Assembly: GCA_902774115.1 (NCBI GenBank)
Contig: CACYHH010000004.1
Location: forward strand, 1-64,000
DNA length: 64,000 nucleotides
Source: an uncultured Spirochaetales bacterium
Lineage (GTDB): Bacteria > UBP6 > UBA1177
Direction: 5' to 3'
This document shows, one piece after another, positions 51,264 to 62,853 of this stretch. Position numbers and translations under genes: made by a program. The notes beneath the pieces were generated by a model. It saw only the letters and a program-made list of their open reading frames with translations, was not told the origin of the DNA and searched no databases. Numbering within the stretch: the first letter of the stretch is position 1; each line of letters opens with the position of its first letter.

Positions 51264-54200
51264 TTATTCCCCATCCTCGAAATAATCGAGCGTTTTCAGG
51301 CTTTCTATGATCCTGTCAAGGTATGGTTCGTCTACGAGCGGCCACGAGAAGCCGAGGCGGTAGAGGACATTCGTCGTGAATGTGTTGTCTGTTTCGGCCA
51401 TGTGCATGTCGGGACGGTCGTTCGTGATGAGACCTGAAAGTTTGGAGTTCATCTTTTCGTCGGCGAGCAGACGCATATATTCGGCGTAGAATTCCTCGTC
51501 GGTTGCAGGTTCGATCTTTACTCCGCAGCGGTTGCACGCATCGATCATCTGCTGCGAATCGAAGTGGAAACGGCTGTCAACGTTGAACGCCGTAAAGTTG
51601 TCGTTCGTTCCTGCAAGAAGGACGATCGCTTTGGCGGTAAGGTCGATGGGAGAAAGGCGCATCGGGTCAGTTGCGTGGCTCATAGGGTATTTACACATCG
51701 CCGCAAAGCCGCGTATTGCGTTGAGGAAAGCGTTTGTTCCCGAATTTATCTGGAATTCGCCGTCGCTGTGGCGCCCCATCAGGTTGCCGACACGCATGAT
51801 CTTTCCGCGCAGTCCGTTTCTGACTGCTTCAAGCACCTTGAGTTCGCCGTGATATTTGGAAAGAAGGTATTTGTTGTCAAGTGCATCGATGACGTAGAGC
51901 TCGTTCTCGTGCATTTTGAGGCCGCGCTGGTAGGTTTCTGCGGTGTGGGCACCGGGAATAGAAGTCGTCGAGATCTGGATCATCCTCGAAGAGTGCTCTT
52001 TTGCGCATTTTATCAGGTTTTCGACCCCGTGGACATTGACCTGCTCGATGCTGTCATCCGCAGCGTAGTGCTTTACGAGAGCTGCGCTGTTTATGATCGT
52101 GTCGAAGTGCAGGTCTTTAAGTTTTTCGGAAAGCGAATCGTCTGTGATATCGGCCTCTACAACGGTGATGAACTCTTCGATTTCTTTGTCAAAAGGCTTG
52201 TCGAAGTAGTACATAAGCATGTTTTTGAGCCGTTTTTCCGCCGTAGCCGCGTTTCCTTTGCGAAGAAGGCATATTATTTTCCCTTCGCGCCTGTCGATAA
52301 GTTCCTTTAAAATGTGGATCCCGAGGAAGCCGACGCATCCCGAAAGAAGGACGTCTCCGATGCTTTCGCGCTTAACTTCGGCCGCTTTTTTGAGTGTGTT
52401 GTCCTTGAGCTGTTCGTAAACGGCAGGCTTGTCTTCCTCTTTCAAAGCAACATCTTCCCTTGGAACGGCGCGGCTCGACTCGACGAATGCAGCCAGAGTT
52501 TCGGGTGTCGGATAGTCGAAAATGTTCTGATATTCGACCTTTACCCCTTTAGCCATAAGGCGCATGATGACTTTTGAAGCCGAAAGCGAAGTTCCGCCCA
52601 TTTCAAAGAAGTTGTCGTCTGCGAAGACTTCGTCAAGCGAGAGAACAGATGCAAAAAGTTCGCAGAGCTGCGCTTCGAGTGACTTTTTCGCCTGCTTTCT
52701 GCCGGTGCGTTTGCGCTCTATCCTGACCTCGGGAAGGGCCTTCTTGTCGATTTTTCCGTTCGGTGTGAGCGGCATAGTCTCGATCTGCATGAGGACATCG
52801 GGGACCATGTAGTATGTGAGCGATGCCTTAAGGTAATTCGTGAGTTCGGAAGTATCGACCGCGCGGTCTGCGGTAAAGAATGCGGCGAGGTAGTCTTCCG
52901 AACCGTTGCTGCGGACTACTACTTTTGTCCGTTTGATGCCCGGGAAAGTGAGGATGCGGTTTTCGATCTCGTCAAGTTCGACGCGGAATCCGCGGAGTTT
53001 GACCTGGTTGTCGATCCTGCCGAAGAATTCGACTTCGCCGTCCTTGTTGATGCGCGCCGTGTCTCCGCTGTGGTAAGCTTTCACGCCGTTAAGCGTAAAG
53101 AAGGCTGCCGCAGTCTTTTCGGGAAGTTTGACATATCCGCGTCCTACACATTCGCCGCAGATTATAAGCTCTCCGCAGGCATAGGGCGGAAGGACTTTTC
53201 CGAAGCGGTCAAGGACGTAGAAGGCGCTGTTTGCGATAGGAGCGCCGATAGTGATGTTTTTTGCACTGTCAAGCTTCTTTGCGCTGCATGTTATCGTGCA
53301 TTCCGTCGGGCCGTAGCCGTTGAGGATATGAGCATCCGGCGCAAGTTTACGCAAATCGTCGAATACTTTTGCCGGGAAAGCCTCCGCTCCGAGAAGAATC
53401 GACCTGAACCCTGCAAGAGCCTGCCTGAATTCCGGAATATCGAGATAGCTTACTAAGAAAGAAGGTGTCGCGAACATTATATCGACATGGTTTTCTATAA
53501 GCATCTGCGAAAGTTCCGCCGGATTGTGGATCTCATGCTCGGTCGCGATGCTTACTGTCCTTCCGTTCAGAATGATTACAAGATCGTCCATTACAGACAT
53601 GTCGAACGATATCGAACTGAGCGCAAGGCAGACGTTTCCGCCCTCTTTTCCGTACATATAAGCGTAAGAGAAACCTTCCTGCTGGACAAGGTTCGCGAAG
53701 TTGCGGTGATCGACAACGACACCTTTCGGTTTTCCGGTAGAACCTGAAGTGTAGATGCAGTAAAGCAGGCTCTCCATCGGGATATCTATATCTGGATTGG
53801 TCTCATCCTTTTCTTCCGCAAAAATTTCTTCGAGAGTGAGCGGTTTATAAGGCTTGTCGCTTGAGAAAAGTTCCGTTTTTTCCGCTTTTATTGCTTCCGT
53901 CGTGATTATGAACGGGCTTTCGCCGTCTCTCATGCAGAAATCGATCCTGTCGTCGGGATACGATGTCAGAACACCGAGGAATGCGCCTCCCGCCTTCATG
54001 ATACCAAGCTCGATGGCGGGAATGTAGACGCTTCTTTCGATCATCAGGGCAACGATCGTATCTTTCTTTACGCCGCGTCTGATAAGCCCTCTTGCAATGC
54101 GGTTGGCGATAGCGTTGAGTTCGCTGTAGGTAAGTTTCTTTCCGTCGGAGATGACCGCGGTTTTGTCCGGATGCGCTGCGACATGCTCCTCGAAAAGTTT

Positions 54201-57200
54201 GTTTACAGGAACGGCTTTGAACTCTCTTTTCGTGTCGTTCATCTTTTCAAGCGCTTTTTCGGCATCTTCCGAAACCATAGAAACATCGCTGAGTGCCGTT
54301 TTTTCGATAAAACTGCCGACTACTTCGTCGAATGCCTCTACAAAAGCCTTTATGAAAGGAGCGCTGTACATATCGCGGCGGTATTCGGCGTTGAAAATGA
54401 ATTTTCCGTTTCTGAGATCGACTGTAACTGCTATCGGCGCTTTTGCTGCATCGGGCAGAACGTTTATCGCTTCCGCAGGCTTTCCGCAGATAGTATCGAA
54501 CGTGAAAGAGTCTCCCTGATAAGCAAAGATTATGTCTGAACGTATTCCGTAAGCCGCCGAGATCTCTGCAAACGAATAGAGGTCGTTAGCCATGCTCTCC
54601 ACAAGCTGTTCCTGGGTCTCACGGACAAAATCGACAACTTTTTTGTTTGCTGCCGGGTGTATCAGGACAGGAAGAGTCTTGACAAGCATCGTCACCGAAG
54701 AAGCGAGACGCGAGTTGTTCCTGCCGTTGTATATCGTCGCAAAAACAGTGTCGTCGGCAAGCGAAAAGCGGTTCAGAGTAAAGCCGAAAGCCGTATTGAA
54801 AAAGGCGTTGAGAGTAAGGGCGTTTTTGTCGCAGAATTCTTTTGCCTTATCTGAGCTTGTTTTTGAAGTGATTGTAAAAGTTGCCGAGCCTGTTCCCTTT
54901 TCTTCAGGCGATTTCGGCGGAAGGCAGTCTGTCTCGCACCCTTTGAAAATGCTGTCATAGTAAGCCCTTGCCTTGTCATAACGCTCTGAAGCACGCGCCT
55001 TTTCTTCGTCAAGCGCAGCTTCGAAGCCGGTGTAGCGTTCCTTTTCAAGGATTTTTCCGTCGTAAGCCCTGTCGATATCTGTAAGGAGGATAGCCGCCGA
55101 AGTTCCGTCAGAAACTATGTGGTGCATATCGATGAAAAGGTAGTTCCCGTCCGGAGTTTTATAGATTTTAACGCGGTAAAGCGGTTCTCCGATAAGCGTG
55201 TAAGGTCTGACGAGTTCCTTTTTATCGGGAACTTTGCTGCATTCAACAACTTCAACTGTAACTTCCGCGTTGTCGTCGCGTTTCGCACGGATATCGCCGG
55301 TTTCGTCTGCAAAAAGTATCGTTTTGAGGTAAGGATGGGCGTCGATCGCCGCTTTTATTGCCGAAACAAGCCTGTCAGTATCTATTTCACCGCTGATTTT
55401 GAAAAGTTGCGGGATGTTGTATGTGACCGAATCTCCTTCAAGGCTGCTTGATGTGAAGATCCCTTTCTGCGTCTGGGTTATCGGGTAGTCTGCAAGCATT
55501 CCGTAATCCTGGGCGCGTTCAGTAGAAAGGATCATCGTTTCAAGCTGTCTGACGGTGCTGTACTGCTTGAGGTCGCTCAGTTTTATCGCAAGGTCGAACG
55601 CTTTTCCGAGCATGACGTTTAGTTTGAGCATTCCGATCGAGGTGAGACCCGCTTCGAAAAGGTCTGTGTCGATGCCGAAACCTTTGCGGCCGATGACTTC
55701 GGCAACAATGTCGAATATAGCTTTCTGGGTCTGGGTTTCAGGCGGTGTGGCATCTTCGGCAGCCGCTACTACCGGATAAGGAAGAGCTCTTTTATCGACT
55801 TTCTGGTTCTGGTTGAGCGGGATCTTTTCGATCTGCATCGTTACGGCAGGAACCATGTAGTAAGGCTTTTCCGAGCGGATGAAGGCGTTCAGAGCCTGAA
55901 TGTCGATCTGCGTATCGGCAACGATGTAGGCTGCGACAAATTTGCCGCCTCCATCTTCGTCAAAAGCTGCTACCGTGACATCCTTGATCCCTTCGAATCG
56001 GCGGATGACTTCTTCGATTTCGGTGAGTTCGACCCTGAAACCTCTGACTTTGACCTGTCCGTCTCTTCTTCCGACAAACTGGATGTTTCCGTCAGGAAGC
56101 ATCCGCACGATATCGCCTGTGCGGTAAACTCTGTCGTATCCCGCTTCAGTCGAGAAGGGATTTTCACCGTAAGCTGCGGCAGTTTTTTCGGGATTGTTTT
56201 TGTATCCTTTCGTGACATGCGCGCCGCTGAGCCAGAGTTCGCCAGCAGCTCCCATGGGAAGCAGCCTTCCGCACGGGTCTACCACATAAAGTTTGACATT
56301 GTCGATAGCTTTTCCTATCGGAATATCCTTGTAAAGACGGTCTACCCTGAAACCTGTCGCCAGGATCGAGCCTTCGGTAGGTCCGTAAAGATTGTAAAGC
56401 GCGAAATCTTTAGGCGGTTCGAGCGGAGTGAGCTTTTCGCCGGCTACCGAAAGCGAGCGCAGAGTCTTCGTTCCCTCCATCAGAGCGAACTGTCTGCCTA
56501 CCTGGGTAGTCATCGTCGAATGGGTTATCGAGTTCTCGTTGAAATATTTCTGGAGCTCGAGCAGATCAAGTCTGATGTCGTCGGCGATTATGTGCAGAGC
56601 CGCGCCGGAAGTGATCGTTGCGTAGGTGTCAAAAACATTTGCGTCAAAACCGTAACTTGCATAAGCCGTGACATTGCAGCCCGGTCCGAGTGCGTAGAAA
56701 TCGCGCTCCCATGCAGCAGTTACCATCGTGTTGCTGTGCATGAAAAGGACTCCTTTCGGTTTTCCGGTAGAGCCTGAAGTGTAGAGCATGATGAAGATAT
56801 CTTCTTTGTCTGGTGCCTGCGGTATTTCGTCAGCATCCGGCAGAGTGTCGATCTCGGAGACCATCATGCGGGAGCCTTTGAATGAATCGGTTATGATGTG
56901 CTGAAGTTCGGGAGTCGTGATGAGAAGCGTCGCCTCAGCGTCTTCGACCATGAGATTGAGTCTTTCGGGCGGATAACCAGGATCGAGCGGAAGGTAAGCC
57001 GCGCCTGCTTTGAGAACGCCTAAAGATGCGGTGAGCATGTATTCGCATCTGGGGATAAGAACGCCGACGACACTCCCTTTTCCGATCCCTTTTCCGGCAA
57101 GATGAGCCGCTAAATTATCGGTGATTTTATCGATTTCTGAGTACGTGAAATGTTTCTCCTTGAACGCGAGACAGAGTGCGTCGGGAGTCTTTTTTACCTG

Positions 57201-58538
57201 CTCGCGGAAAAGATCAACTACGGTGTGTTCGGTGTCGTAAGACTTTTCTGTCAGGTTGAAACTGTCGAGCAGTTTTCTTCCTTCGGCATCAGTCAGCTCG
57301 ATGTCTCCGAGTTTTTCAGCCGTGATCATTCCCTTCAGAACGCTGATGTATGTCCTGGTGAAACTCTGCATGAAAGATTCGGTGTAGCAGGACTTTCTGT
57401 ATTTTGCCTTGAACTGGAAAGAACCGCTTTTTTTCATAACGAGAAACTCGATATCGGCTATCGGATCCATGTCGTTCAGGTGTTCGATTTCTATTGCCGA
57501 ACTGCCGAAAGGAATGGGTTTGAAGAGGTCTGAATGGTAAACAAAAGTGACATCGGTCGAAATTCCGTAGTTCGCCGCGATCTCGGCAAAGGGCACGCAG
57601 TCGTTCTGCTTCATTTCGTAGAAGAAGTCTGACATCGTTTTTATGAGTTCTGCAGGAGCTGCGTTTTCATCGAATGTGCAATGCATCGGCAGTGTTCGGA
57701 CAAACATTCCTATCTCGGAAGCGGCTGATTTTGTGCGGCCGTGGAACGCCGTCGTGTAGACGCTCTCCTTTGCTCCGTTGAATTTTGCCAGAGTATATCC
57801 GAAAGCGGCCTGGAAAAGAGCGTTTTCGGTGAGTTTGAGTGCTTTGATGTATGAATCGACGGCATCAGTGAAACCGTTTTCGTCAGCCGAAAGCAGAACC
57901 GCTCCCATTTTGTTTTCGCCGTCCCCTGCGACGACATCCGAAATCGGGCGGGAGTCGCATTCGATGCCGTCAAGTTTGGTCGCAAGCATGTCGCGGAGGC
58001 GCTGCATTCTTTCAGGATCATCTTTTGCGGCTTCGTCAAAAGCTATATCGAAAAACGTCGGTTCTTCATCGCTGCACTTTTCTCCGCCGTAAACCGCGCC
58101 TATCTGCGGAATAAAAATATTGTGGGAAGCACCGTCCATAACAATGTGGTGGATATCGAAGAAAAACGCGTCGCCCTCTTTCGTGCTGAGGTAGATGAAA
58201 CGGAAAAGCGGCCCGTTCTCAAGGTCAAAAGGTCTGCACAAATCTTTTGTTCCAGCTTCGATCGTGTCGGCAGATTTCTCTTCAAAAACGATCTCCTGAT
58301 TGCGGTAAACCATCGACGGAACGCCCTGAACCGTGCGGCACACGGCGAAAATCGCAGGATGGTGCAAGACAACGGTTTTGACCGCGTCGATGAAACGCGC
58401 CTTATCAGTTCCCTGCGGAAGACGGCAGAGCGTCGGCACATTGTATTTCATTGACGACGGGTTTTCGGACCAGTCCATGTAAAGACCGATCTGCGCCCGG
58501 GTAAGCGGAACACAGTCCCTTTTAAGTTTTCTGTTCAT
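51264..58538 (-). CDS. Two-module nonribosomal peptide synthetase with terminal reductase (C-A-T-C-A-T-R)
   Basis: 2424 residues. C1 (to ~425, DIHHIVMDGAS), A1 (~440-935; LYTSGSTGKPKG, YNLYGPTEGS, YRTGD, GQVKVRGFRVEL), T1 (~945-1020; Ser in EAGLTSIGML), C2 (~1030-1450; DMHHIVSDGTS), A2 (~1460-1950; IYTSGSTGKPKG, NGYGPTECT, GRIDNQVKLRGFRVELDEIE), T2 (Ser in EMGGTSLSASKV) and a reductase (~2050-2424; SGCVGFLGIHIL NADPH loop, Y-x3-K in KYLLSKYHG). All catalytic motifs look intact. The reductase predicts release of a peptide aldehyde, which can cyclise to an imine or pyrazinone. The leading C domain with no loading module suggests N-acylation or a partner enzyme. No PPTase or tailoring gene is in view. 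AGAGGAG precedes the ATG. Confidence 0.95.
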   Translation of the reverse strand: MNRKLKRDCVPLTRAQIGLYMDWSENPSSMKYNVPTLCRLPQGTDKARFIDAVKTVVLHHPAIFAVCRTVQGVPSMVYRNQEIVFEEKSADTIEAGTKDLCRPFDLENGPLFRFIYLSTKEGDAFFFDIHHIVMDGASHNIFIPQIGAVYGGEKCSDEEPTFFDIAFDEAAKDDPERMQRLRDMLATKLDGIECDSRPISDVVAGDGENKMGAVLLSADENGFTDAVDSYIKALKLTENALFQAAFGYTLAKFNGAKESVYTTAFHGRTKSAASEIGMFVRTLPMHCTFDENAAPAELIKTMSDFFYEMKQNDCVPFAEIAANYGISTDVTFVYHSDLFKPIPFGSSAIEIEHLNDMDPIADIEFLVMKKSGSFQFKAKYRKSCYTESFMQSFTRTYISVLKGMITAEKLGDIELTDAEGRKLLDSFNLTEKSYDTEHTVVDLFREQVKKTPDALCLAFKEKHFTYSEIDKITDNLAAHLAGKGIGKGSVVGVLIPRCEYMLTASLGVLKAGAAYLPLDPGYPPERLNLMVEDAEATLLITTPELQHIITDSFKGSRMMVSEIDTLPDADEIPQAPDKEDIFIMLYTSGSTGKPKGVLFMHSNTMVTAAWERDFYALGPGCNVTAYASYGFDANVFDTYATITSGAALHIIADDIRLDLLELQKYFNENSITHSTMTTQVGRQFALMEGTKTLRSLSVAGEKLTPLEPPKDFALYNLYGPTEGSILATGFRVDRLYKDIPIGKAIDNVKLYVVDPCGRLLPMGAAGELWLSGAHVTKGYKNNPEKTAAAYGENPFSTEAGYDRVYRTGDIVRMLPDGNIQFVGRRDGQVKVRGFRVELTEIEEVIRRFEGIKDVTVAAFDEDGGGKFVAAYIVADTQIDIQALNAFIRSEKPYYMVPAVTMQIEKIPLNQNQKVDKRALPYPVVAAAEDATPPETQTQKAIFDIVAEVIGRKGFGIDTDLFEAGLTSIGMLKLNVMLGKAFDLAIKLSDLKQYSTVRQLETMILSTERAQDYGMLADYPITQTQKGIFTSSSLEGDSVTYNIPQLFKISGEIDTDRLVSAIKAAIDAHPYLKTILFADETGDIRAKRDDNAEVTVEVVECSKVPDKKELVRPYTLIGEPLYRVKIYKTPDGNYLFIDMHHIVSDGTSAAILLTDIDRAYDGKILEKERYTGFEAALDEEKARASERYDKARAYYDSIFKGCETDCLPPKSPEEKGTGSATFTITSKTSSDKAKEFCDKNALTLNAFFNTAFGFTLNRFSLADDTVFATIYNGRNNSRLASSVTMLVKTLPVLIHPAANKKVVDFVRETQEQLVESMANDLYSFAEISAAYGIRSDIIFAYQGDSFTFDTICGKPAEAINVLPDAAKAPIAVTVDLRNGKFIFNAEYRRDMYSAPFIKAFVEAFDEVVGSFIEKTALSDVSMVSEDAEKALEKMNDTKREFKAVPVNKLFEEHVAAHPDKTAVISDGKKLTYSELNAIANRIARGLIRRGVKKDTIVALMIERSVYIPAIELGIMKAGGAFLGVLTSYPDDRIDFCMRDGESPFIITTEAIKAEKTELFSSDKPYKPLTLEEIFAEEKDETNPDIDIPMESLLYCIYTSGSTGKPKGVVVDHRNFANLVQQEGFSYAYMYGKEGGNVCLALSSISFDMSVMDDLVIILNGRTVSIATEHEIHNPAELSQMLIENHVDIMFATPSFLVSYLDIPEFRQALAGFRSILLGAEAFPAKVFDDLRKLAPDAHILNGYGPTECTITCSAKKLDSAKNITIGAPIANSAFYVLDRFGKVLPPYACGELIICGECVGRGYVKLPEKTAAAFFTLNGVKAYHSGDTARINKDGEVEFFGRIDNQVKLRGFRVELDEIENRILTFPGIKRTKVVVRSNGSEDYLAAFFTADRAVDTSELTNYLKASLTYYMVPDVLMQIETMPLTPNGKIDKKALPEVRIERKRTGRKQAKKSLEAQLCELFASVLSLDEVFADDNFFEMGGTSLSASKVIMRLMAKGVKVEYQNIFDYPTPETLAAFVESSRAVPREDVALKEEDKPAVYEQLKDNTLKKAAEVKRESIGDVLLSGCVGFLGIHILKELIDRREGKIICLLRKGNAATAEKRLKNMLMYYFDKPFDKEIEEFITVVEADITDDSLSEKLKDLHFDTIINSAALVKHYAADDSIEQVNVHGVENLIKCAKEHSSRMIQISTTSIPGAHTAETYQRGLKMHENELYVIDALDNKYLLSKYHGELKVLEAVRNGLRGKIMRVGNLMGRHSDGEFQINSGTNAFLNAIRGFAAMCKYPMSHATDPMRLSPIDLTAKAIVLLAGTNDNFTAFNVDSRFHFDSQQMIDACNRCGVKIEPATDEEFYAEYMRLLADEKMNSKLSGLITNDRPDMHMAETDNTFTTNVLYRLGFSWPLVDEPYLDRIIESLKTLDYFEDGE

Positions 58539-58676: not shown

Positions 58677-59045
58677 TTACTTATCTATCAAGAATCGCCT
58701 TTCTTCGATGTTTTCAAGAACTTTCATTTGTTGAATTGCGATTTGGTTGAGTTTTTCAAGCCGTTCGCTCTGGCTAAGACCGTCGTTGATGAAAACAGCG
58801 TTCAGATTTTCCATGTTTGAGAGGCAGATCAACTGGTTTATTGTGGCGAATTCGCCATAATTAAAATTAGGATTGTAAACTTGTTCCCAAATGCCTATGT
58901 ATTCAAGAGTATTCCTATTTCTGAGCCAGTCTGTAATGAAAAACTCACCGTCTTTGGCTTTAAGCATATCTGTCAGACAAAAATAGTCTTCATTGTTTAC
59001 ATGAATTAGCCTAATACTTTCACCCTTCACTGTAATTTTTGTCAT
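58677..59045 (-). CDS. KilA-N domain protein, internally shortened
   Basis: 122 residues with AGGAGG before the ATG. The KilA-N start is clear (FCLTDMLKAKDGEFFITDWLRNRNTLEYIGIWEQVYNPNFNYGEF), but the second half of the usual domain is missing. The sequence jumps to the C-terminal tail type found in KilA-N proteins (MENLNAVFINDGLSQSERLEKLNQIAIQQMKVLENI). It looks like an in-frame deletion of about 100 or more residues. DNA binding may be lost. Confidence 0.75.
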   Translation of the reverse strand: MTKITVKGESIRLIHVNNEDYFCLTDMLKAKDGEFFITDWLRNRNTLEYIGIWEQVYNPNFNYGEFATINQLICLSNMENLNAVFINDGLSQSERLEKLNQIAIQQMKVLENIEERRFLIDK

Positions 59046-59251
59046 TTTGAACCTCCTGTTTTTTCTTGATTGTTATTTCAAACCCCTCGAATTCGAGTGG
59101 GTTAAACTTACCTAAATCAGCAAAATTAAAATTCCCAAAGGGGGTCGAATTCGACCCCTTTAAACACGAATCTTCGAATAAAGTATAAAAGAACAATGTT
59201 TTTCTGAGTATTTTTATAAAAATTTTAAAATAAATATCAACTAAAAATTTA
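59046..59251. other. AT-rich gene-free stretch with two palindromes
   Basis: No gene is visible between the KilA-N start and the ORF6N 3' flank. It holds two hairpins, 59081-59103 (AACCC-CTCGAA / TTCGAG-GGGTT with a bulge) and 59137-59161 (AAAGGGGGTCGAA / TTCGACCCCTTT with one bulged G). Both centre on GAATTC. They may act in KilA-N control or belong to the local repeat family. Confidence 0.6.
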
Positions 59252-59405: not shown

Positions 59406-60488
59406 TTACAAAACAAGTTCCGGATTAGTCAACAGATCTTCAATCAGCGGTTTATAAATTGCATTGTCTGCTGTTGTGGAAATAGAAGAGACTTTGTTTC
59501 CTGCATCCTTTGACGATGCGCCACAGTGATATATTTTTTCATTTTCAGTGCCGAAATCAAGAATGATGTATCTGTCATGCAAAATACCGTTTGTCTTTTT
59601 GAAAGAAACCGAAATCTGCGGATATTCTTTAATAAAATCATCGAGTTCCTTTTTGTGCAGACCATGATGTATGTTGTCTGAAAATATTGTGATATTCACA
59701 TCTTTTTTTACTGATTTCAGCAGAACGAGTGTTTTCAAGCCGATATAATTGTCAATCACAAAAATTGTTTCTTTCGCTTCGGCATAAATCTGCTGGTAAG
59801 CGAGATCTGCTTCAACTGATTTTCCGTTTAGAAATAGAAAATCCTTCTTTATTTCGTGATTGCTGAAATCTTCAATGATTTTCACCACATCATCCTTTGT
59901 GGGCACATTTGATAATTTTTTGTCTATTCTCGCGATATCCTTTGTATTCTGTGAAGTCTGAATCGCGAGCCTTGTGACTTCATCCGAACCGATAAGATTT
60001 TCTCTTTCAATGATGAAATCCTTCATTGTTTTAAAAAGCCGGATCAGAATTTTGCTCTGTCTTATTGCCAGATCGCCGCGCAAAACAGTCATCAGCATGT
60101 AGATTCCCTGCTCGGTGAATGCGTAAGGAAGATATTTTGAATATTTTCCTTGTTCCAAAGTTAAAGTTGATCCTGATTCTTCTATTGCTTCAGAAAATTC
60201 TAAGGTCGAAATTTTCGACCTTAGAATAGGATTGAGTGGAATTGTCTCGGAAGATTCTAAGGTGCAATTTTTGCACCTTAGAATTTCATAATATTCCTCT
60301 TTTGTTATCTGAAACCTAAAATCTTCATCAAATTTTTCAATATTATTCTTGACTTGTCGATTGAATGCCTTTACCGAATACCCGTAGATTTCAGCCAGAT
60401 CGAAGTCGAGCATTACGCGCATTCCGCGGATCGTGTAGATTTTTGACCGTAAATCGTTCTCGTTGTGAATTACTATTTCGTTTTCCAT
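59406..60488 (-). CDS. ORF6N-domain protein with C-terminal PLD-like domain and repeat insertion
   Basis: About 360 residues. The ORF6N part (SKIYTIRGMRVMLDFDLAEIYGYSVKAFNRQVKNN, YLPYAFTEQGIYMLMTVLRGDLAIRQS) belongs to the phage KilA-N/ORF6N DNA-binding group. The C-terminal region has a phospholipase-D-like fold (TIFVIDNYIGLKTLVLL, LHDRYIILDFG with the H-D motif), common in stand-alone ORF6N proteins. Between the two ORF6N halves lie two copies of ILR-x-K-x-x-TLE-x-SE-x-I encoded by palindromes; homologues continue here directly. The ATG at 60488 is preferred over a TTG at 60494. Confidence 0.87.
   Translation of the reverse strand: MENEIVIHNENDLRSKIYTIRGMRVMLDFDLAEIYGYSVKAFNRQVKNNIEKFDEDFRFQITKEEYYEILRCKNCTLESSETIPLNPILRSKISTLEFSEAIEESGSTLTLEQGKYSKYLPYAFTEQGIYMLMTVLRGDLAIRQSKILIRLFKTMKDFIIERENLIGSDEVTRLAIQTSQNTKDIARIDKKLSNVPTKDDVVKIIEDFSNHEIKKDFLFLNGKSVEADLAYQQIYAEAKETIFVIDNYIGLKTLVLLKSVKKDVNITIFSDNIHHGLHKKELDDFIKEYPQISVSFKKTNGILHDRYIILDFGTENEKIYHCGASSKDAGNKVSSISTTADNAIYKPLIEDLLTNPELVL
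60197..60227. repeat. Perfect 31-bp palindrome inside the ORF6N gene (1)
   Basis: Arms ATTCTAAGGTCGAAA and TTTCGACCTTAGAAT around one base; encodes ILRSKISTLE. Confidence 0.95.
60254..60284. repeat. Perfect 31-bp palindrome inside the ORF6N gene (2)
   Basis: Arms ATTCTAAGGTGCAA and TTGCACCTTAGAAT around TTT; encodes ILRCKNCTLE. It starts 57 bases (19 codons) after the first and differs at the inner stem in a compensated way. Confidence 0.95.
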
Positions 60489-60861
60489 ATCCAAACACCA
60501 AAAACAAATTTTTTTACATCAATATTATGATTAAATTGGAAAAATTATCAAATGTATTTTGATTTTAAATTAAAAATTGTCGTCTTTTTGTGGCGACACG
60601 ATGCAATCACCACTCGCATTTTCTCATTCTACGAGTCAACATTGTCTAATATCTAAATTTTAAAATCATTCAATAAAATTAGATATTTACGCTATTGAAA
60701 TAAGAAAAGGGATTTTTGCAGGAAAATTTTTTATTTGTCTCCGAGATAAATAACAAGAAAAAGGAATAAAATGTATTTTCCGCCTTGCCTTTTTGTGAAA
60801 AATATGGCAGATTTACGGCGTTTTTGGTCAATCAGAAAAGAATATGCGGAGGTTCAAAAGG
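60489..60861. other. Gene-free stretch between ORF6N and the restriction genes
   Basis: Contains the right 105-bp direct repeat (60562-60666) and an AT-rich stretch with a purine-rich segment before the restriction gene. No tRNA, riboswitch or further gene seen. A promoter for the restriction genes must lie at about 60700-60850, but I cannot place it with confidence. Confidence 0.55.
60562..60666. repeat. 105-bp direct repeat flanking the ORF6N gene (right copy)
   Basis: Partner of 59252-59356, offset exactly 1310 bases, with no length change across the alignment. Confidence 0.88.
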
Positions 60862-62853
60862 ATGAATATTTTCGATATCTTGAAAGACAGTGATTACAAA
60901 TCCGAGCAGTTTTCTTCCGAGGCAATAAATTGGTTAAACGGAAGAATTGAAGAAAAAACAGACAAAAACGGGAAAAAATATGCTGCTGTAGAATGCCTTG
61001 TTCGAAAAAAAGAAATTGTTCTTAAGCCGGAAGAAGTAGTGCGACAACTGTTTCTTTATAAGCTGACCCAAGAATACGGGTATAAACTTAATAGATTGCA
61101 GGTGGAATACAGTGTTTACTTCGGTCGTGAAGTTAAACGTGCAGACATTGTTGTCATGGATGAGGATCGCCCAACCGTTCCGTATATTATTGTTGAGGTC
61201 AAGAAACCTAAAATGAAAGATGGAAAGGAACAGTTGAAAAGCTATTGCAATAGCACAGGTGCGCCGATTGCTGTTTGGACAAACGGCGACCAGATTGCAT
61301 TTTACAACAGGCAAGATCCAAATTATTTTAAAGATATCCGAAATATTCCTTCAGCAACACAGACTCTTGAAGAAATTGTTACTGAAACATGGACGATTAA
61401 GGAACTTAGAGAAAATGACCGATTGCAAAAAGAGCGTATTTCTTTAAAAGATGTCATTCTTGATCTTGAAGATGAAGTCCTTGCCAATGCTGGAGTTGAT
61501 GTTTTTGAAGAATGTTTCAAGTTGATTTTTGCAAAACTTTATGATGAATTTTTAAGCGGACAAACTCCAGAGCGATATCTTGAATTTTCTAATTCTGGTA
61601 GGACTGATTTCAAATTAAAAGAGAAAATTCAGGAACTGTTTGACAGGGCAAATCAAAAATGGAAAGGCGTATTTGATGAAAACACAAAGATTATGCTTTC
61701 ACCGTCGCATTTAGCTATTTGCGTTTCCTCTCTTCAAAGTGTGAAACTCTTTAACAGTAATCTTGATGTTGTTGACGATGCCTTCGAATACTTGATGAGT
61801 AAGTCAAGCAAAGGCGAAAAGGGTCAGTTCTTTACACCGCGCTATGTAATCGAAATGTGTGTTCGGATGCTGAATCCCCAAAATGGAGAAAAGATGATTG
61901 ATACTGCATGCGGCAGCAGTGGATTTCCAGTACATACAATTTTTAATGTATGGCGTAAGATGGCAAAAAAGAAAGGACTTAATATCAGTGAGTTTTTCTC
62001 TTTGGATCAGAAACCGTACGAATTTACTGAATATGTAAAGGATAACATCTTCGGAATTGATTTCGATGAAAAGGCTGTTCGAGTAGCCAGAACACTCAAC
62101 TTGATTGCCGGAGATGGACACACAAATGTACTTCACCTTAACACTCTGGATTATACGCAGTGGGTAGAAACGGCAAAACAGGAAGATTGGCAAAGTACTT
62201 ATTTTGAGGGTTTTGACAGGCTGAAAAAATTAAGAAGAGACAACAAAAGCTACCGAGATTTTAATTTTGATCTTCTGATGGCAAATCCGCCTTTTGCAGG
62301 AGATATCAAAGAATCCCGTATTCTCAGCATGTATGAGCTTGCAAAAAATACCAAGGGCAAGCAGCAAGCCAAGGTTGGTCGTGATATTCTTTTCATTGAG
62401 CGCAATCTTGATTTTTTGAAACCCGGCGGACGTATGGCGATTGTTCTTCCGCAAGGAAGATTCAACAATTCAAGCGACAAATATATCCGCGATTATATTG
62501 CTGATCGGTGCAGGATTTTAGCGGTTGTAGGCTTGCACGGAAATGTTTTCAAACCTCACACGGGGACAAAAACAAGCGTGCTTTTTGTGCAGAAATGGGA
62601 TGAATTGCTCTGTCCGAAAGTTGATGACTACAATATTTTCTTTGCGACAATGCAAAAGCCGAGCAAAGATAATTCAGGCGACAAAATTTACCTCAAAGAA
62701 ACCGATGGAAACGGAAATTTAAAATATAAATTGGATAGTCACGGTCATTTGATTGTAGATCACGATTTGTTCAATCATGACGGACTTACTCAGGACGGAA
62801 TAGCAGAAGCCTTTGCCGAATTTGCTAAAAAAGAAGGGCTAAGTTTTTTTTGA
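60862..62853 (+). CDS. Fused HsdR_N nuclease-HsdM methyltransferase (BcgI-like or type I RM)
   Basis: 663 residues from the ATG with GGAGG nine bases upstream; an earlier ATG at 60844 lacks one. The N-terminal part is a type I HsdR N-terminal nuclease domain with RADIVVMDEDRP...YIIVEVKKP (D...E-x-K) and the following Q. The rest is HsdM-like: GQFFTPRYVIEMCVRMLNP, SAM motif DTACGSSGFPVHT (the usual DPACGSGG is altered) and NPPFAG. Fusion of nuclease and methyltransferase with a separate specificity subunit is the BcgI plan. An ordinary type I system with a downstream hsdR outside the window is the alternative. Confidence 0.85.
   Translation: MNIFDILKDSDYKSEQFSSEAINWLNGRIEEKTDKNGKKYAAVECLVRKKEIVLKPEEVVRQLFLYKLTQEYGYKLNRLQVEYSVYFGREVKRADIVVMDEDRPTVPYIIVEVKKPKMKDGKEQLKSYCNSTGAPIAVWTNGDQIAFYNRQDPNYFKDIRNIPSATQTLEEIVTETWTIKELRENDRLQKERISLKDVILDLEDEVLANAGVDVFEECFKLIFAKLYDEFLSGQTPERYLEFSNSGRTDFKLKEKIQELFDRANQKWKGVFDENTKIMLSPSHLAICVSSLQSVKLFNSNLDVVDDAFEYLMSKSSKGEKGQFFTPRYVIEMCVRMLNPQNGEKMIDTACGSSGFPVHTIFNVWRKMAKKKGLNISEFFSLDQKPYEFTEYVKDNIFGIDFDEKAVRVARTLNLIAGDGHTNVLHLNTLDYTQWVETAKQEDWQSTYFEGFDRLKKLRRDNKSYRDFNFDLLMANPPFAGDIKESRILSMYELAKNTKGKQQAKVGRDILFIERNLDFLKPGGRMAIVLPQGRFNNSSDKYIRDYIADRCRILAVVGLHGNVFKPHTGTKTSVLFVQKWDELLCPKVDDYNIFFATMQKPSKDNSGDKIYLKETDGNGNLKYKLDSHGHLIVDHDLFNHDGLTQDGIAEAFAEFAKKEGLSFF

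Follow-up and report, generated by a model that had tools for sequence, protein, structure and literature searches.

The window analysed here, the whole 64,000-nt stretch of DNA, contains an ORF6N gene with two perfect palindromes in its coding sequence, and a near-perfect palindrome occupies the same codons in nearly all ORF6N domains collected from many bacterial phyla and from viruses. The palindrome is kept at the DNA level, beyond the needs of the protein, and its bases covary with residues predicted to read DNA. It is considered probable, at roughly three chances in four, that the palindrome is the encoded protein's own DNA target, carried within its coding sequence and probably serving autogenous control. 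The protein would bind this site as duplex DNA, likely as a dimer; the use in autogenous control is proposed with less confidence.

The product of the window gene belongs to the ORF6N family by profile search (PF10543, E=2.5e-29, 101.8 bits against a curated cut-off of 27.8). Both palindromes lie in this minus-strand gene, 57 bp apart from start to start as the first-pass annotation had described, and their codons correspond to a helix end and the variable loop preceding the YLPYAFTEQG strand; AlphaFold2 likewise places the palindrome-coded residues at the helix end and variable loop of the winged-helix-like domain, while fold matches in the PDB are weak. The putative cognate copy has 14-nt arms around a 3-nt centre, and the second copy 15-nt arms around a 1-nt centre (Table 1). 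The direct repeat surrounding them is 80 % identical between copies. Paralogue L007 carries a single copy at the corresponding place, so the pair is read as a diverged tandem duplication. Between the copies the inner stem CG is replaced by GC on both arms, as had been correctly noted. The pair four bases from the centre (d4) is C·G in the putative cognate copy, the type expected with Arg in the recognition helix, and G·C in the second copy, the Glu type also seen in L007. The residue covarying with d4 in the window gene is Arg (helix SVKAFNRQ, versus TTKRFNEQ in L007). The compensated swap is thus real, but it is a local case of a family-wide pattern rather than a peculiarity of this gene, and it would represent a change of specificity between the Arg type and the Glu type seen in L007.

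Table 1. Features of the ORF6N gene and its surroundings (positions in the window)
Feature	Position	Strand	Remarks
ORF6N gene, 360 aa	59406..60488	-	ATG at 60488; alternative TTG at 60494
ORF6N winged-helix-like domain	60084..60446	-	
Recognition-helix codons (VKAFNRQVKNN)	60342..60374	-	Arg codon CGA at 60357-60359
In-gene palindrome, putative cognate copy	60254..60284		Coding strand ATTCTAAGGTGCAAAAATTGCACCTTAGAAT; gene nt 211-241 counted from TTG
In-gene palindrome, second copy	60197..60227		Coding strand ATTCTAAGGTCGAAAATTTCGACCTTAGAAT
Tandem duplication enclosing both palindromes	60184..60284		57-bp period, 44-nt conserved part
Non-coding KilA-N-type palindrome between the ORF6N and KilA-N genes	59141..59158		GGGGTCGAATTCGACCCC
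KilA-N-type in-gene palindrome, partly decayed	58835..58866		Coding strand TTTTAATTATGGCGAATTCGCCACAATAAACC; intact in relatives
Neighbouring KilA-N gene, apparently truncated past the helix-turn-helix part	58677..59045	-	

Within the 64-kb window, exact ATTCTAAGGT is found only as the four arms of these palindromes, and no further perfect palindrome with arms longer than 10 nt is present. None of 200 synonymous recodings of the gene matched its palindrome score. The source genome encodes 12 ORF6N domains, and most of its ORF6N genes carry a palindrome of 25–35 nt at the same codons, with differing arms.

For the wider family, ORF6N genes were sampled solely by protein homology, from relatives, two further phyla and IMG/VR. 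Best-stem scores averaged 10.1–11.8, compared with about 5 for synonymous recodings, and a score of at least 9 was reached by 88/107 domains versus 36/3000 control coding windows. Among 45 windows of less than 80 % identity, pairs 3–13 were Watson–Crick in 90 % of cases, falling to 21–25 % when the alignment was slid by 1–3 bases, and most stem positions showed two to four pair types. At fourfold-degenerate stem sites 343 of 364 were paired (94 %), where 128.6 (35 %) would be expected. The palindrome is also used in two reading frames, encoding LRSQxxTS in one and ELV/ITNCD in the other. Synonymous nulls, fourfold-degenerate pairing and the use of two frames together place the constraint on the DNA itself. 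The first-pass annotation had named a lack of other such palindromes and of covariation in homologues as the outcome that would speak against it; the result across these 107 domains is strongly the opposite. Some ORF6N genes (L191, L004, L190 and L256) contain between two and five in-frame palindromes that differ in specificity, and such arrays are possibly records of former specificities.

Stems that are perfect, with a small A/U-rich apex and compensatory changes, would also fit selection for an mRNA hairpin that controls translation or stability. RNA helices, however, tolerate G·U, and the ORF6N stem mismatches comprise 7 G·T, 13 A·C and 19 others; in the three related families described below, G·U stands against A·C at 1 vs 3, 5 vs 11 and 6 vs 7, with no enrichment of G·U. 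A transcript structure would not predict covariation with DNA-reading residues either. The mRNA hairpin was set aside on the G·U comparison and is given very little credence. Of the earlier proposal that selection acts on the hairpin itself beyond the protein, maintenance at the DNA level stands and the hairpin is not supported; a translation regulator, one of three functions then suggested, is disfavoured on the same two grounds. A pure DNA hairpin with a conserved tip and a variable paired stem was abandoned given the helix covariation. A group II intron or other known RNA was also discarded, as no Rfam family scored above its gathering threshold at 10 loci.

Covariation was assessed after overall identity had been regressed out of the correlation between half-site and residue. 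It peaks on recognition-helix residues in four families, namely ORF6N, KilA-N, DinD-type Bro-N and a second Bro-N type, with wing residues contributing in ORF6N and KilA-N; the leading column or columns of each family give p(max over columns) <= 0.003. The correlated residues are helix positions 20 and 24 and wing positions 64–66 in ORF6N; 31, 32, 35 and 36 within one helix (model H30–37), as well as 79 and 93, in KilA-N; 17 and 19 in DinD; and 24 in Bro-N type 2. At d4 of ORF6N, Gln goes with A·T, Glu with G·C and Arg/Lys with C·G in 155/158 genes, and of the three exceptions, the window gene and L004 each have a second palindrome copy that does fit. In KilA-N, Asn occurs with T·A (39/39), Asp with G·C (10/10) and His with C on the reading arm (4/4). 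In DinD the pairings are Arg-G (31/31), Glu-C (12/13) and Gln-A (2/2). The usual contact chemistry is Arg-G, Glu/Asp-C and Gln/Asn-A, with which the pairings found here mostly agree.

Parsimony on the ORF6N tree gives 49 changes of residue class and 46 of base, counts that are probably too high as the tree rests on short alignments; with helix residue and base each changing some 46–49 times, shared ancestry alone is insufficient to produce the code. Coevolution within the protein, between the helix and the residues that the palindrome encodes, is unlikely, though not impossible, because the rule also holds in second-frame genes, where d4 is encoded by other amino acids (13/13). The covariation has the form expected of specificity residues and an operator half-site, and the palindrome is in this sense cognate to the protein of the same gene. 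A recognition site, another of the functions first suggested, is thus the option these comparisons favour, since palindrome bases covary with DNA-reading residues. Counting against a self-target is the symmetric pairing out to 12–13 bp, which is long for a winged-helix half-site.

In the related families the palindrome again has a family-fixed place: around FxxxEF in KilA-N (for example TTTTAAACTGGTCGAATTCGACCAGTTTAAAA), around DHFxxVxKMV in DinD-type Bro-N (ACCATTTTGTTGACGTCAACAAAATGGT) and around ELxTNCxQL in the second Bro-N type. In unbiased viral sets, all synonymous shuffles were beaten by 33/47 KilA-N, 32/56 DinD-type and 23/39 Bro-N type 2 genes. The in-gene palindrome of E. coli K-12 dinD, a 30-mer at NC_000913.3 3817934-3817963 (GACCATTTCGAGGAGATCCTCGATATGGTC), forms 13 of 15 pairs, and a clear palindrome is absent from some DinD and Bro-N genes. 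Bro-N and KilA-N had been chosen as negative controls and proved positive; an attempted control with pRha (PF09669) yielded mostly ORF6N genes. HTH_3 genes, then used as the negative control, do not share the feature (1/30). A viral-contig locus (L134) resembles a further related domain family.

These distributions bear on the idea that the palindromes are functionless and self-perpetuating, their arms being kept identical by template-switch repair. Symmetric outward growth in several cases (41 nt in L238, 49 nt in L249) and swaps of several bases at once (CG to GC, for instance) are what such repair would produce, and it may contribute as a mutational route. As a full explanation it is nevertheless very doubtful, for it accounts neither for a fixed, family-specific place in four DNA-binding families nor for the near absence from HTH_3, and it leaves the base-to-helix code unexplained.

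Among 84,980 species genomes scanned, AGGTCRCAAWTTGYGACCT was matched in at least 119 stretches from many phyla. Among the matches listed, with 135 sites, 82 were within ORF6N genes, 19 just upstream and 11 just downstream, and five of the remaining loci coincided with ORF6N fragments. Across two whole phyla nearly all palindrome sites were in or beside ORF6N genes, with no matches to a reversed-pattern control, and 65 genomes without ORF6N, all from one phylum, had no site at all. That AGGTCRCAAWTTGYGACCT is so widespread had first prompted the idea of a mobile palindrome, an RPE- or REP-like element inserting preferentially in ORF6N genes, and a transposable palindrome was among the possibilities raised in the first pass. 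Tandem in-gene copies, copies beside ORF6N genes and solitary copies are in keeping with it. However, because the sites in the two phyla are nearly all ORF6N-linked, a dispersed element is not indicated; copies spread genome-wide through unrelated genes or intergenic regions, as in RPE or REP families, were not seen, and the cores differ between families. This idea was dropped and is rated very improbable. A looser 17-mer in viral contigs matched mostly at non-ORF6N places (ORF6N by motif in 1/120, an ORF6N gene at 6 loci), and that scan was excluded from the evidence. The core GGTCRCAAWTTGYGACC, its arms often longer and symmetric, was observed in many viral contigs (L041–L160) with no ORF6N gene in the stretch examined, and some of these copies may be terminators.

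Autogenous operators of bacterial and phage regulators normally sit in promoters. As in those systems, a palindrome is found at the gene of its reader in nearly every ORF6N domain examined, and its sequence covaries with the recognition helix, matching the specificity residues in ORF6N and under the KilA-N and DinD codes. The difference is that, for almost all the ORF6N genes examined, the apparently cognate site falls within the codons for the DNA-binding domain itself, whereas flanking copies are usually non-cognate. In Bacillus subtilis a palindromic parS lies inside spo0J (parB), the gene of its reader, a feature shared with the present case; parS is one nearly invariant sequence, whereas the ORF6N-type half-site varies from gene to gene, tracking the protein. 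In-gene palindromes of other kinds, the Rickettsia palindromic elements among them, are likewise in frame, but they occur in unrelated genes and not at one set position in certain DNA-binding families. PARCELs, 25-residue amphipathic tandem domains of surface proteins, are coding repeats with dyad-symmetric DNA (PMC2996958); this symmetry is shared, but sequence and setting differ, and the unit here encodes about 10 residues inside a winged-helix domain and no 25-residue amphipathic tandem repeat. KilA-N, a winged helix-turn-helix domain that shares homology with fungal SBF/APSES (Mbp1, PCG2), is termed poorly characterised in a report whose main text does not mention palindromes (PMC4862756). 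In the open-access literature six core variants were not found, nor was any relevant link of ORF6N or KilA-N to palindromes.

Upstream copies of the same specificity would be expected of a promoter operator, without strictly defining one. Palindromes flanking ORF6N genes resemble the in-gene ones in kind, yet they match the adjacent gene at d4 in 21/40 cases, near chance, and comparison of flanking with internal palindromes locus by locus gave no excess of matches; clear upstream matches are seen in a few loci (L408, L452). Flanking palindromes are therefore not generally operators of the adjacent gene, and a simple promoter-operator view is weakened. The in-gene copy, unlike the flanking ones, appears to be the reliably cognate one. 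An alternative purpose is self-recognition for exclusion or homing, in which the protein would act on homologues carried by incoming elements, either silencing or targeting them, and half-sites would diversify as a result. The genes are indeed mobile and multicopy, are found in the context of type I R-M systems, ICEs and phages, in some cases encode a PLD-like C-terminus, and have highly diverse half-sites with only the in-gene site reliably cognate; this alternative is nevertheless regarded as unlikely. A broader and tentative proposal is that the ORF6N/KilA-N/Bro-N superfamily carries its cognate site within the coding sequence of the very domain that binds DNA (in ORF6N almost without exception), that specificity and target are inherited and evolve together as a single unit, and that the in-gene site is the gene's address for self-silencing or for excluding elements of the same allele and not for ordinary promoter control. 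Such an address would explain both the diversity of half-sites and the non-cognate flanking sites.

Several features of the surroundings were also observed. The window ORF6N protein ends in a PLD-like HxRxxxxD motif (HDRYIILD); a PLD-like C-terminus (HxRxxxxD, then GASxKDxG) is present on other long ORF6N proteins (L213, L222, L001), and no Pfam model detects the domain. Type I R-M loci contain or adjoin ORF6N genes both in the window (60844-62853) and on the Treponema plasmid pTS1 (L453), the Treponema gene order being hsdM-wHTH-ORF6N-hsdS-Fic. About 260 nt upstream of two ORF6N paralogues (L003 1808-2067 and L012 1874-2134) are 85 % identical while their sites are unrelated, which suggests that the ORF6N gene moves together with its promoter. 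The non-coding GGGGTCGAATTCGACCCC is of the same type as the in-gene palindrome of a KilA-N gene (L497) and also occurs near ORF6N/KilA-N genes of the same genus (L022, L040, L497, L506); these copies are perhaps sites of a single KilA-N protein. A 2424-aa ORF (51264-58538) adjoining the KilA-N and ORF6N genes reads like a nonribosomal peptide synthetase.

ORF6N, KilA-N and Bro-N are winged-helix-like DNA-binding domains. Under the self-target reading they would recognise a 25–31 bp palindrome, presumably as dimers; the recognition helix would contact the half-site, joined by residues of the wing in ORF6N and KilA-N. Each gene would retain its cognate palindrome in the codons after the helix-turn-helix. 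A change of a reading residue would be accompanied by a new base pair in each arm, introduced by synonymous codons or by substitutions that the variable segment tolerates. Bound protein would block or tune transcription of its own gene, and highly mobile genes would thus carry their operator along. In the window gene the site is duplicated, one copy fitting the Arg helix and the other still being of the Glu type. If this is true, regulators of phages and mobile elements that still await characterisation, thousands in number, would each have a DNA target legible in the gene itself, and public sequence would suffice to derive the code by which ORF6N, KilA-N and Bro-N domains recognise bases. The function of these domains, E. 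coli DinD included, would be open to direct testing, and coding sequence would be constrained, across bacterial phyla, as the binding site of its own product.
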